Virus record (IMG/VR): IMGVR_UViG_3300030106_004523
Coordinates: 1 to 38,567 of that record
Direction: 5' to 3' (one strand)
DNA: 38,567 bases
Source: a virus
The notes beneath the pieces were generated by a model that ran no database searches, was not told the DNA's origin, and saw nothing but the letters and a program-made list of their open reading frames with translations. Shown in pieces: positions 33,083-37,309 of the stretch (positions within the stretch are counted from its first letter, which is position 1; each line of letters starts with the position of its first letter). The translations under genes were made by a program, and so were the position numbers.

Positions 33083-33436
33083 ATGTCAATCAATATGGTG
33101 ATCTACGGAGAGCCCTGTAGTAAGGCGAATAGCAGGAGACTGGTGAAGAGCAGGTCTGGTAGACCATTGTTTATCAAAAGCCAGAAGGCGTTAAATTATG
33201 TCAAGTCTTTTGGCGAGCAATGTAAAGTTTTAGATCCGCTGATTGTTGATGATGTAGCTGTGCTGATCAGGATTTACTATTCCAGTCGCCGCCCAGACCT
33301 TGATGAGTCTTTGATACTGGACTGCATGCAGGGTCTGGTGTATAAAAATGATCGGCAAGTGAAAGAGAAGCATGTTATCTGGGGAGGCGTGGATAAAGAG
33401 AATCCGCGTGCAGAGATTAGTGTCAGAAGTTTATAG
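33083..33436 (+). CDS. rusA: RusA-family Holliday junction resolvase
   Basis: A 117-residue endonuclease that cuts four-way DNA junctions. The RusA signature is visible: KANSRRLV near the N-terminus, RRPDLDESLILDCMQG with D72 and D74, and VYKNDRQV with D90, matching the catalytic D70, D72 and D91 of E. coli RusA. Length (about 120 residues) is typical. It is the first gene of the right-hand plus-strand block and diverges from the recombination operon, leaving only 51 bases between the two starts. It probably resolves junctions made by the Erf pathway. Confidence 0.9.
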   Translation: MSINMVIYGEPCSKANSRRLVKSRSGRPLFIKSQKALNYVKSFGEQCKVLDPLIVDDVAVLIRIYYSSRRPDLDESLILDCMQGLVYKNDRQVKEKHVIWGGVDKENPRAEISVRSL

Positions 33437-33671
33437 GTTGGTGTACAGCAAGGTGATACAGCAGGCCATTAAAGATTTGGTTTGCAATCAGCCGCAGGAC
33501 CGAAAAGCCGCCCGTAAATATCTGAAATCCCCTGTGTTTTTGAGGCACTGCCAAACCGCTGGCTACCCTTCCGGCTTGCAGGATGCGCTGGACGAGATGC
33601 TACTTCTGAGTCGCACTGAGCAAAAAATTGTTGCGGCGATGGTAATGGAAGAGCTGACAGAGCTTGTGTAA
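33372..33671 (+). CDS. Conserved small helical phage protein
   Basis: The 99-residue frame contains a conserved helical part: YSKVIQQAIKDLVCNQPQDR, ARKYLKSPVFLRHCQTAGYP and LQDALDEMLLLSR. Similar short proteins occur in the early regions of marine phages. The ATG at 33372 would overlap rusA by 65 bases, unusual for this genome; GTG at 33441, just after the rusA stop, is an equally plausible start and would give 76 residues. No catalytic motif. A minus-oriented terminator hairpin begins just past its stop. Confidence 0.6.
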   Translation: MLSGEAWIKRIRVQRLVSEVYRLVYSKVIQQAIKDLVCNQPQDRKAARKYLKSPVFLRHCQTAGYPSGLQDALDEMLLLSRTEQKIVAAMVMEELTELV

Positions 33672-33695
33672 AAAAGCCCCCCAGCGCGGGGGGGC
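33670..33695 (-). terminator. Intrinsic terminator oriented to the minus strand
   Basis: A 7-bp GC stem (33676-33682 with 33689-33695) is followed, when read on the minus strand, by six T residues (33675-33670). On the plus strand there is no T run after the stem. So the element should stop transcription coming leftwards from the primase upstream region, not the plus-strand genes it follows. Confidence 0.7.
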
Positions 33696-33720
33696 AAAGC
33701 TCAATGAGAGTAGTCAACGA

Positions 33721-33739
33721 ACCTAGTAATGTACTAGGT
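33721..33739. promoter_or_regulatory. 19-bp inverted repeat (operator-like)
   Basis: ACCTAGTA and TACTAGGT are perfect 8-bp arms separated by ATG. It lies in the noncoding region upstream of the primase-helicase gene and fits a repressor or initiator binding site. Confidence 0.55.
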
Positions 33740-33748
33740 CTAGAAACT

Positions 33749-33770
33749 TACTAAGTAAATTTACTTGGTA
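33749..33770. promoter_or_regulatory. 22-bp AT-rich palindrome
   Basis: The palindrome has a perfect 14-bp core, AAGTAAATTTACTT (33753-33766), and extends to 22 bp with one T.G mismatch pair. It could be an operator for a dimeric regulator or part of a replication origin, given that the primase-helicase gene follows. Confidence 0.6.
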
Positions 33771-33795
33771 CAGTTCTAGTCTAGGACAGTACTAG
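33770..33795. repeat. Direct repeat ACAGTTCTAG / ACAGTACTAG
   Basis: Two 10-bp copies with one mismatch start at 33770 and 33786, 16 bp apart, next to the AT-rich palindrome. Together with the palindromes they make six CTAG tetramers in 73 bp, a tetramer usually rare in proteobacterial and phage DNA. Confidence 0.55.
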
Positions 33796-33801
33796 GGGGT
33801 C

Positions 33802-33830
33802 TAAATATCAGAAAAAAAGGAGGTAGTCAA
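33802..33830 (-). promoter_or_regulatory. Sigma70-like promoter on the minus strand
   Basis: TTGACT (33830-33825) and TATTTA (33807-33802) are separated by 17 bases, and TG lies one base before the -10 (extended -10 type). Transcription would start near 33795 and run through the palindromes to the terminator at 33670. The -10 match is moderate. Confidence 0.4.
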
Positions 33831-33834
33831 CACT

Positions 33835-35577
33835 ATGAACAGCTTGGAAGAGTTTGTCCTAAGTCACAATAAAGACACGAGGACACGATGCCCGGACTGC
33901 GCGGACTCTCGCAAGAAGAAAAATATCAAGACTTTTTCCATAACCATAAAGCCAGATCAAGCACTGTATCACTGTCACCATTGCGGTTTATCAGGATCTT
34001 TCTGGCGAAAAAAATTTTACGAGGCTCATATGAACGAACCAAAAAAGGTGGTGCAGATACCCACCCAGCTCAACTACAACGTCGATCAAATCAAGTCATT
34101 CTTCGAGGGCAGAGGCGTTGCGCTCGACAACCTAGATACACTACCTGCCATGACCACCGGCACAAAGGTCTTTGCTGGCGAAAAGAAGGCCGCTGTAGGC
34201 TTCGTGTACGGCCCCAGAGAAAACCCCACCGCAATCAAGTGGCGGAGCATTGATGGCAAGGGATTTACCTGTGACGGGGCTCCTAGAGCCTTCTACGGCA
34301 TAGAGCAGGTGGGGGAAGATGACGAGGAGCTAACCATTGTCGAGGGCGAGTGCGATGTGATTGCGCTGGCATCTGTGGGCATCAAGGCAGTGTCCTGTCC
34401 GAATGGCGCACCCATCAAGGCATCTCAGCACAGGATCGATCCAGAGGAAGACAAGAAGTTCAACTTCATCTGGAACGAAAGAGACCTTCTGGAGCGATGC
34501 AAAAAAATCATCTTGGCGACCGACAATGACTCAGCCGGCGAGGCACTGGCAGAAGAGATTGCTCGGCGGGTTGGAAGGGCCAAGTGTTGGCGGGTGAAGT
34601 TCCCAGAGCAGATCAAAGATGGCAATGATGCTGTACAGTGGCTGGGGGCAGAGGAGACACAGAATCTGTTTGAAAACCCAGAGCCTGTGCCGCTTTCTGG
34701 CGTTTATTCTGCCGCTGACTACACTGACGCGGTCAAAGAAATTTACGCCAACGGACATGGCCGGGGCGCCTCAACCGGATTCGACAGTATTGACGATCTC
34801 TTCACGGTGGCAGAGGGCCAGCTCTCCATTGTCACTGGCATGCCTTCTTCAGGAAAATCTGAGTTCATTGATCACGTCATGATCAACCTAGCTCAGCGGG
34901 AGGGCTGGAAGTTTGCGGTCTGTTCTTTTGAAAACCCACCACACATGCACATAGCAAAACTGGCGGAAAAGATAACTGCCAAGCCGTTTTATTCTGGATC
35001 AGGACAGAGGATGACTGAGCCTGAGCTGGAGGAGGCGGTGTCATTCATTGACAGACATTTTATGTTTTTGGAGAGCAAGGACGGCAACCTGTCTACCATC
35101 GATTCGATCATTGACAGGACAAAGCAGGCGGTTATGCGTGGGGCTAACGGACTTCTGATCGACCCCTACAACTACATCGAGGCTGGGTCTGGAGAGGAGT
35201 ACAGTAACATCTCGCAGATGCTGACTCGGATCACCAGTTTTGCCAAAGCATACGGCATCCATGTTTGGTTTGTTGCACATCCACAAAAGATGTACCCGAG
35301 GGACGATGGCACCTACGCCGTGCCAAAGGGTATGAATATTTCTGGCTCGGCGGCTTGGTTTGCTAAGGCTGATCTGGGGATTACTGTGCATCGCGGAGAT
35401 GAGGGCGTCGAGGTCCACTGTTGGAAATCGAGGTTCAAGTGGGTGGGTCAGCAGGGCGTGGCAGTCCTCGACTATGACCTGTCGACAGGGCGATACAGCG
35501 AGAAGGTGAAGCAAACGTCCAGTGTTGACTATGCGCGTGCGACGGGCAGGGATTGGGATGATCTAGATGACTTCTAA
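33835..35577 (+). CDS. Primase-helicase, T7 gp4-like
   Basis: A 580-residue bifunctional replication enzyme. Zinc ribbon: C19-x2-C22 and C47-x2-C50. TOPRIM primase: E170 in LTIVEGECD and D230/D232 in LATDNDSAG. RecA-like helicase: Walker A GMPSSGKS (335-342), Walker B LLIDP (D443) and the arginine-finger region near the end. The tail DWDDLDDF is acidic and ends in Phe, like the T7 gp4 tail that docks the DNA polymerase. It unwinds DNA and lays primers at the fork. AGGAGG at 33818-33823 is 11 bases from the ATG, rather long. The upstream palindromes may control it. Confidence 0.92.
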   Translation: MNSLEEFVLSHNKDTRTRCPDCADSRKKKNIKTFSITIKPDQALYHCHHCGLSGSFWRKKFYEAHMNEPKKVVQIPTQLNYNVDQIKSFFEGRGVALDNLDTLPAMTTGTKVFAGEKKAAVGFVYGPRENPTAIKWRSIDGKGFTCDGAPRAFYGIEQVGEDDEELTIVEGECDVIALASVGIKAVSCPNGAPIKASQHRIDPEEDKKFNFIWNERDLLERCKKIILATDNDSAGEALAEEIARRVGRAKCWRVKFPEQIKDGNDAVQWLGAEETQNLFENPEPVPLSGVYSAADYTDAVKEIYANGHGRGASTGFDSIDDLFTVAEGQLSIVTGMPSSGKSEFIDHVMINLAQREGWKFAVCSFENPPHMHIAKLAEKITAKPFYSGSGQRMTEPELEEAVSFIDRHFMFLESKDGNLSTIDSIIDRTKQAVMRGANGLLIDPYNYIEAGSGEEYSNISQMLTRITSFAKAYGIHVWFVAHPQKMYPRDDGTYAVPKGMNISGSAAWFAKADLGITVHRGDEGVEVHCWKSRFKWVGQQGVAVLDYDLSTGRYSEKVKQTSSVDYARATGRDWDDLDDF

Positions 35578-36043
35578 GCATACAGACCTCGGCACCAACG
35601 AGATTCACCAGCGCCACAGCGTGATGGTTGAAGGTGGCAAAATGCCGCGCGCCAAAGTGATGGATCAGACCATCATCGACCGTTACCTGATCGATGGGCT
35701 CCTCAGCCTCAGTGAGCATCAGGCCGGAGAGTATCTTCTTCACCAAGCATCCCGAGCAGGGATATTTGCACAGCCGTTGCGTTACGAGGTGGGGGGTGGT
35801 GAGCCAAGCAAAGACGCAATGGCTACAGAAGGACTGATGAAGTTCGGTAGAACCCTGGCCCTTGTCAGAAAGGCATTAGGAATACACCATCACAAGGTAC
35901 TGCAACGTGTGGTGTTGGAGGACAGAGACATATCGTCTGATAGTAGTGATTTGAAAATGCTGAAACAGGCGCTGAGGTTGATTGCTGATCGTCGGATGGC
36001 CGGCGGTAGAAACCCCCTGAGACATCTGAAGTCTCGCTCTTAA
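35567..36043 (+). CDS. Conserved helical phage protein after primase-helicase
   Basis: A 158-residue protein beginning MTSKHTDLGTNEIHQRHSVM, with VMDQTIIDRYLIDGLLSLSE, HQAGEYLLHQASRAG and GRTLALVRKALGIHHHK. The helices and basic segments suggest DNA binding, perhaps a regulator. Proteins with the same THTDLxTNEIHQRH opening follow primase-helicase genes in other marine phages. It overlaps the helicase gene by 11 bases, so production is linked to it. Function not established. Confidence 0.65.
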   Translation: MTSKHTDLGTNEIHQRHSVMVEGGKMPRAKVMDQTIIDRYLIDGLLSLSEHQAGEYLLHQASRAGIFAQPLRYEVGGGEPSKDAMATEGLMKFGRTLALVRKALGIHHHKVLQRVVLEDRDISSDSSDLKMLKQALRLIADRRMAGGRNPLRHLKSRS

Positions 36044-37156: not shown

Positions 37157-37309
37157 CTAGCAAGTTGTTTCAGTTTTAAAATGGGGCCAAAGACCTGACC
37201 CCACCATTTCGCAGTAGTGGCGAGTCTCAGCGATCTCTTGCTGATACTCATCCTCTCCCACGATCCCTAGTGCTAACAACAACAGCAAGACAAACATAAA
37301 TCCTTTCAT
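37157..37309 (-). CDS. 50-residue protein with signal or membrane segment
   Basis: A short gene between two larger minus-strand genes. It encodes MKGFMFVLLLLLALGIVGED, a hydrophobic start, then DEYQQEIAETRHYCEMVGSG, LWPHFKTETTC. The ending RHYCEMV...WPxxK...C is a pattern I know from small marine phage proteins. Its ATG overlaps the previous stop in ATGA. Two Cys could form a disulphide if the protein is exported. It may be a membrane or periplasmic factor; function unknown. Confidence 0.68.
   Translation of the reverse strand: MKGFMFVLLLLLALGIVGEDEYQQEIAETRHYCEMVGSGLWPHFKTETTC

Follow-up and report, generated by a model that had tools for sequence, protein, structure and literature searches.

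What control, if any, does the short intergenic gap in front of a phage primase-helicase gene exert, and does it act through an RNA or through the DNA itself? In the window, by which we mean the whole analysed stretch of 38,567 nucleotides at the start of a 54-kb IMG/VR virus record (IMGVR_UViG_3300030106_004523), this gap is 163 bp long and lies between a small ORF (33372-33671, with its stop at 33671) and the primase-helicase start at 33835. A sequence-only reading of this DNA had proposed a control locus here, producing a structured noncoding RNA that is transcribed away from the primase and regulates replication in the manner of plasmid copy-control antisense RNAs, or primes replication at an origin. 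As described below, we consider it probable, though well short of certain, that 33670-33834 is a compact transcription-control cassette, in which the palindromes are factor sites shared with a second array at the late operon and couple both regions.

A probable minus-strand transcription unit before the primase gene

In minus-strand order, the gap consists of a promoter-like element, four 15-bp units around an AT-rich centre, a 27-nt linker and a terminator (Table 1). The promoter-like sequence with 17-bp spacing reported in the sequence-only reading is present, with a TG preceding the -10, and the claim of a terminator that works on the minus strand only was borne out; the RNA predicted from them is about 126 nt long and has no ATG, also as proposed. 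The -10 of the window, TATTTA, is weak (3/6), and a generic sigma-70 scan did not report the element at 33830-33802.

Conservation of the unit was followed through a primase search of IMG/VR, which gave 80 loci, and the cassette was scanned in 42 loci (41 relatives and the window). The unit, whose terminator or palindromes relatives might have been found to lack, is kept in 42/42 scanned loci in the order promoter, array, terminator, with predicted RNAs of 111-158 nt; in one of the loci (L041), the CTAG units of the array are lost, and the promoter and the terminator are retained. All 42 carry TTG...TGnTA in the same 25-bp layout as well as a GC hairpin and T-tract on the minus strand at the same place. 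The TTG, TG and TA columns are 100% conserved over the 21 distinct sequences of the promoter, in which most adjacent positions vary, and the hexamer spacing is invariant despite a varying distance from the promoter to the primase ATG. Similar arrangements are found at greater divergence. For example, in three loci with primases 53% identical (L048, L051 and L052), the array is directly preceded by a near-consensus -10 (TATAAT, TACAAT or TAAAAT) and followed by a minus-strand terminator, and a locus with a 49% identical primase (L069) has TTGACT-N17-TAATTG before the array and a T-run just past the last unit. When the 17-bp spacing is assumed, the minus-strand -10 of the close relatives is without the usual T at its last position; we weighed alternative readings of this -10, and the layout is invariant under every one of them. 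It is very probable from these comparisons that the minus-strand transcription unit, with its promoter, RNA of about 126 nt and terminator, is real, and the cassette and its conservation can be read directly from the sequences. A leader peptide encoded ahead of the array, ATGAACCTAGTAACTTACTAG in L004, was also considered and rejected, because it is not conserved and the window reads ACG instead of ATG.

Table 1 Features of the gap and of the nearby genes discussed here, in window positions
Feature	Position	Strand	Remark
Intrinsic terminator	33670-33695	-	hairpin 33695-33676, T6 33675-33670
Predicted small noncoding RNA, ~126 nt, no ATG	33670-33797	-	start placed from the promoter
Direct repeat GTAGTCAAC, copy 1	33710-33718		inside predicted RNA
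Palindromic unit 1, CTAGTAATGTACTAG	33723-33737		
Palindromic unit 2, CTAGAAACTTACTAA	33740-33754		
AT-rich central palindrome AAGTAAATTTACTT	33753-33766		mirror centre of array
Palindromic unit 3, TTGGTACAGTTCTAG	33765-33779		
Palindromic unit 4, CTAGGACAGTACTAG	33781-33795		identical copy at record position 43266-43280
Promoter-like TTGACT (33830-33825)-N17-TATTTA (33807-33802), TG 33810-33809	33802-33830	-	overlaps primase ribosome-binding site
Direct repeat GTAGTCAAC, copy 2	33823-33831		primase translation start region
Primase-helicase gene, 3' of cassette	33835-35577	+	phrog_239, E 3.6e-78
Myb/GcrA-like helix-turn-helix protein, hydrophobic C-terminal helix	36785-37147	-	candidate array reader
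50-aa probable membrane protein	37157-37309	-	phrog_6168, motif HYCEMV...WP

Palindromic arrays at the primase gene and the late operon

The transcribed stretch is dominated by palindromes. Six CTAG tetramers, noted already in the sequence-only reading, lie at 33723, 33734, 33740, 33776, 33781 and 33792; given 116 CTAG in the 54-kb record, 0.15 would be expected per 74 bp versus the six seen (Poisson P ~1.5e-8). These tetramers are parts of four 15-bp palindromic units which that reading overlooked, centred at 33730, 33747, 33772 and 33788 and arranged as mirror images around the AT-rich centre. The unit motif is CTAGnACnGTnCTAG (15 bp), the spacing is mostly 16-17 bp, and the array (33722-33796) matches its own reverse complement at 79%. 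Of the other repeats described before, the inverted repeat with 8-bp arms (33721-33728/33732-33739) is exact, the 22-bp palindrome is reduced to a perfect palindrome of 14 bp with outer 20-nt arms that are 80% complementary, and the direct repeats of 10 bp are indeed present in two copies, with an exact length of 9 bp.

Within the 54-kb record, the motif CTAGnACnGTnCTAG occurs at two places only, the gap and 43249-43280, and the latter is also the next densest independent CTAG cluster (four CTAG, at 43249). This second array is found where the late operon begins, about 9.4 kb away from the first, and closely follows another conserved promoter. Among 18 relatives' records scanned, 17 contain the motif and eight the second site (G001, G002, G003, G008, G009, G011, G012 and G018), about 9.5-11.5 kb from the primase array, which in G001 and G012 is itself a weaker motif match; in the other motif-bearing records, many of them shorter contigs, the primase array alone was found. 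Seven of the second sites were read completely; all are flanked by terS on one side and the structural genes on the other, and each is preceded by the conserved promoter-like sequence TGTCA-N15-TACAAT. In G024 (L048, L164), the relative orientation of the early and late modules is reversed with respect to the window's record, and the second site precedes terS while still lying between promoter and late genes; in G029 (L192) it also precedes terS. Both of these sites stand behind a -10-like box. Since the array recurs at the late operon, the proposal that the gap is a control locus now has stronger support than the sequence-only reading could have given it.

The late-operon promoter-like element was also observed in its own right at record positions 43175-43230 (L084), in L107-L113 and in L163, as TGTCA-N15-TACAAT or TAAAAT. 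Its 15-bp spacing is unusual and is kept even in G010, and a late-operon promoter with such spacing may need an activator.

The positions of the two arrays bear on two other explanations. First, the sites could serve packaging (pac) or DNA organisation and be read by the small terminase or by a membrane-bound DNA-binding protein, the transcription unit being incidental. The second site adjoins terS, TerS proteins are found together with the arrays, and the Myb-like candidate described below has a hydrophobic C-terminal helix, all in line with such a role. However, both arrays are immediately downstream of promoters even where the gene order differs, and TerS does not track the motif, since the G024 protein is among the most diverged and the CTAG-type motif is kept there, which makes packaging a very improbable function. 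Second, the array and its AT-rich centre could form an iteron-type origin that binds an initiator, with the minus-strand promoter providing transcriptional activation or a primer and the late array acting as an accessory origin element. Regularly spaced, repeated dyads with an AT-rich centre beside a primase-helicase gene, and a promoter that fires into them, fit this well; the lambda origin has four 19-bp iterons with the opposing promoter pO nearby (PMC3985674), and iterons are also present in T4 oriE, where their role is unproven (PMC3016281). We nevertheless regard an origin as unlikely, because the second array precedes the late operon and follows it upon module inversion, which suits transcription control better, because no initiator gene was recognised, and because the GC skew, suggested earlier as a check for an origin, follows the gene strand.

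Motif switches provide the strongest evidence that both arrays are read in trans. In G020, both arrays carry GAGAACnnTCTC, with two stray one-mismatch matches in addition, and in G010 (24.5 kb) CGTAnATnTACG is found at no more than one mismatch at both arrays and nowhere else. When the arrays were cross-compared, those of G010 and G020 each scored best against the partner from their own genome. Because both arrays change motif within the same genome, they must be read by a sequence-specific, trans-acting factor; the two and only two sites and their joint change of motif are features of the sequences themselves. The primase region and the late operon are probably controlled together by one phage factor; recognition of the sites by a factor of the host is conceivable. 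Within the CTAG group, apart from the common motif, the two arrays of one genome showed no particular match to each other: they resemble one another no more closely than they resemble arrays from other genomes, and thus give no sign of a dedicated RNA-RNA pairing between the two places.

DNA sites, RNA stems and candidate readers

Whether the palindromes act as DNA or as RNA was judged from 135 units from 31 distinct sequences, with the pairing test made on 15 representatives. Unit positions 5/11 and 7/9 are each constrained (C never occurs at 5, and G never at 11), and they form 56 complementary pairs versus 50.4 expected (15 representatives, P 0.17), that is, no covariation within units. Among the mismatches, A-C is at least as common as G-U. 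The two halves of a unit thus vary independently, as DNA half-sites would and RNA stems would not. The predicted RNA folds more stably than shuffled sequences (z -5.4), and the plus strand is even more stable (z -6.8), as is expected of a DNA palindrome. Between the first and last units there are 50 complementary pairs versus 39.7 expected (P 0.001), yet these units are equally alike in direct orientation, and the inner pair tends to mirror itself (P 0.025, not corrected for sequence relatedness). RNAalifold gives a covariation term of just -0.31 kcal/mol and the stems do not covary, so the earlier proposal of a structured RNA as the functional product finds no support as a general mechanism. 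The units resemble protein half-sites (CTAG-D-A-M), and we favour DNA sites over RNA hairpins as the reading of the palindromes; the RNA hairpin looks mainly like a by-product, with a structural role of the RNA less likely.

A further explanation is that the 126-nt RNA acts as an antisense small RNA, pairing with the primase leader and ribosome-binding site and limiting translation in the style of plasmid copy control. Any minus-strand RNA from the gap would also be antisense to the primase leader. Pairing of the pre-terminator linker with the region of the primase ribosome-binding site and start codon reaches dG -20 to -27 kcal/mol in L004, L006, L007 and the window, and -19.3 kcal/mol in L040 (P <= 0.005 versus shuffles). 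The direct repeat GTAGTCAAC of the sequence-only reading belongs to this pairing and gives the predicted RNA its complementarity to the ribosome-binding site. However, the other clades have no clear excess of complementarity to this site (P 0.1 to 1), the stems lack covariation inside the units, with almost none found by RNAalifold, and Rfam 15, searched with the window cassette and six relatives, gave no match at gathering score (the best score in the cassette was that of anti-hemB, 22.1 of 49.5 bits). Copy control by an antisense RNA is thus not supported as a general role, since the window clade and L040 alone show pairing beyond that of shuffled sequences; it is decidedly improbable as the explanation of the cassette, and antisense pairing is at most a local addition.

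If the sites are DNA sites, a protein reader can be sought among the neighbouring genes. The Myb/GcrA-like helix-turn-helix protein is a candidate. Its matches to Pfam Myb (8e-5) and GcrA (6e-4) are both below the curated cut-offs, and it matches phrog_323 at 1.6e-6. The protein is present in 55 fetched loci, among them many CTAG-motif relatives and several loci that come from the same records, and is lacking in G010 and G020, whose motif differs; it is also missing from the G024 and L039/L040 loci, though these keep the CTAG-type motif. Its gene is fast-evolving and directly downstream of the 50-aa ORF, and the pair is conserved in most CTAG-motif relatives.

Other genes were considered and set aside as readers. 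The 50-aa ORF (37157-37309) was examined as an Arc-size small repressor and rejected on account of its hydrophobic N-terminus and membrane-protein look. Right after the primase, ORF 35567-36043 encodes an all-helical protein conserved in the CTAG group, G010 and G020; it was rejected because it was not found in G024 and because Pfam, PHROGs and PDB-fold searches gave no family or fold match. The primase and TerS were rejected because their divergence does not track the motif. Among the genes of the window region that were compared, those shared with G010, G020 and G024 are rusA, an exonuclease, a recombination gene, the primase, an ArdC-like protein, a nuclease and terL, as well as terS (by position and HTH alignment), and none of the genes common to these three follows the motif type. 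The ArdC-like anti-restriction protein (record 41030-41998, L084:2463-3431), with an N-terminal ArdC domain and a metallopeptidase, is highly variable, with 27-42% identity between relatives, and a relative has a tRNA gene in its early region (L006:9612-9682). None of 50,697 phage records matched the region at the DNA level, so no cultured relative was there to help. When GTDB genomes were searched with the primase, one contig was obtained (L085), filed under a Euryarchaeota MAG; it gives no host, and its assignment is probably a binning artefact.

Proposed control and comparison with known systems

For the transcription-control cassette, we propose the following mechanism. Minus-strand transcription by RNA polymerase would begin within the ribosome-binding region of the primase gene, proceed leftward through the four 15-bp palindromic sites and end at the intrinsic terminator about 126 nt on. 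The palindromes would be DNA binding sites of a sequence-specific factor, most likely phage-encoded and dimeric, one dimer spanning two CTAG half-sites 11 bp apart and neighbouring dimers following each other at intervals of 16-17 bp. This factor would also occupy the matching array just behind the promoter that serves the late (packaging/structural) operon, about 9.4 kb off. Because both arrays are in the first transcribed stretch after a promoter, the bound factor may block or clear both promoters together, tying the primase-control region to the onset of late genes. The reader would be a protein rather than an RNA, and repression would be the direction of control; what would matter is the act of minus-strand transcription, which, like that from lambda pO, would hinder or help processes at the replication gene, and not the RNA made. 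More tentatively, and with considerable doubt, the cassette may belong to a widespread uncultured phage family whose life cycle is timed by one factor, maybe a membrane-anchored Myb-like protein, that reads two mirror-symmetric arrays of palindromes, the first within the self-terminating minus-strand unit and the second behind the late promoter, and has switched specificity at least two times together with both arrays.

On this proposal, one recognisable sequence code would link two control points of an uncultured phage family, a replication gene and the late operon. The natural motif switches show that this code is read in trans, and the regulator can thereby be found, for example by comparing gene content with motif type. 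In addition, the cassette can be a testable case for the old question of what purpose pO/oop-like units beside phage replication genes serve.

Literature on phage P4 ori/crr and phi29 p16.7 gave nothing directly usable for comparison. The closest analogue appears to be the lambda system of pO, the oop RNA and the iterons of ori-lambda. The pO/oop promoter of lambda is controlled by LexA. In both systems, an opposing promoter is located at the start of the replication gene (here in 42/42 scanned loci), a short RNA with an intrinsic terminator points away from that gene (here predicted, 111-158 nt), and four dimer sites form an array, bound by initiator dimers in lambda and putatively by factor dimers here. 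In lambda, the activity of pO affects replication and opposing transcription, and the oop RNA as such seems to matter little to replication (PMC3985674). Unlike in lambda, the array here is inside the transcribed unit and is repeated at the late operon, and the RNA is not antisense to an upstream gene, as oop is to the 3' part of cII; the T-tract of the terminator merely overlaps the stop codon of the upstream ORF (33669-33671). Plasmid copy-control antisense RNAs are small RNAs opposite the leader of a replication gene, and the RNA predicted here has the same placement. In contrast to them, stem-loop covariation is not conserved here, and above-chance pairing to the ribosome-binding site is found in one clade and one locus only. 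Finally, the stoperators of cluster A mycobacteriophages are asymmetric sites for a monomeric repressor that are scattered across the genome (PMC9283540). Both systems present a single phage factor with multiple genomic sites (putatively so here), whereas the phages described here have two dense arrays only, with symmetric sites that stand directly behind promoters and switch their motif in step.
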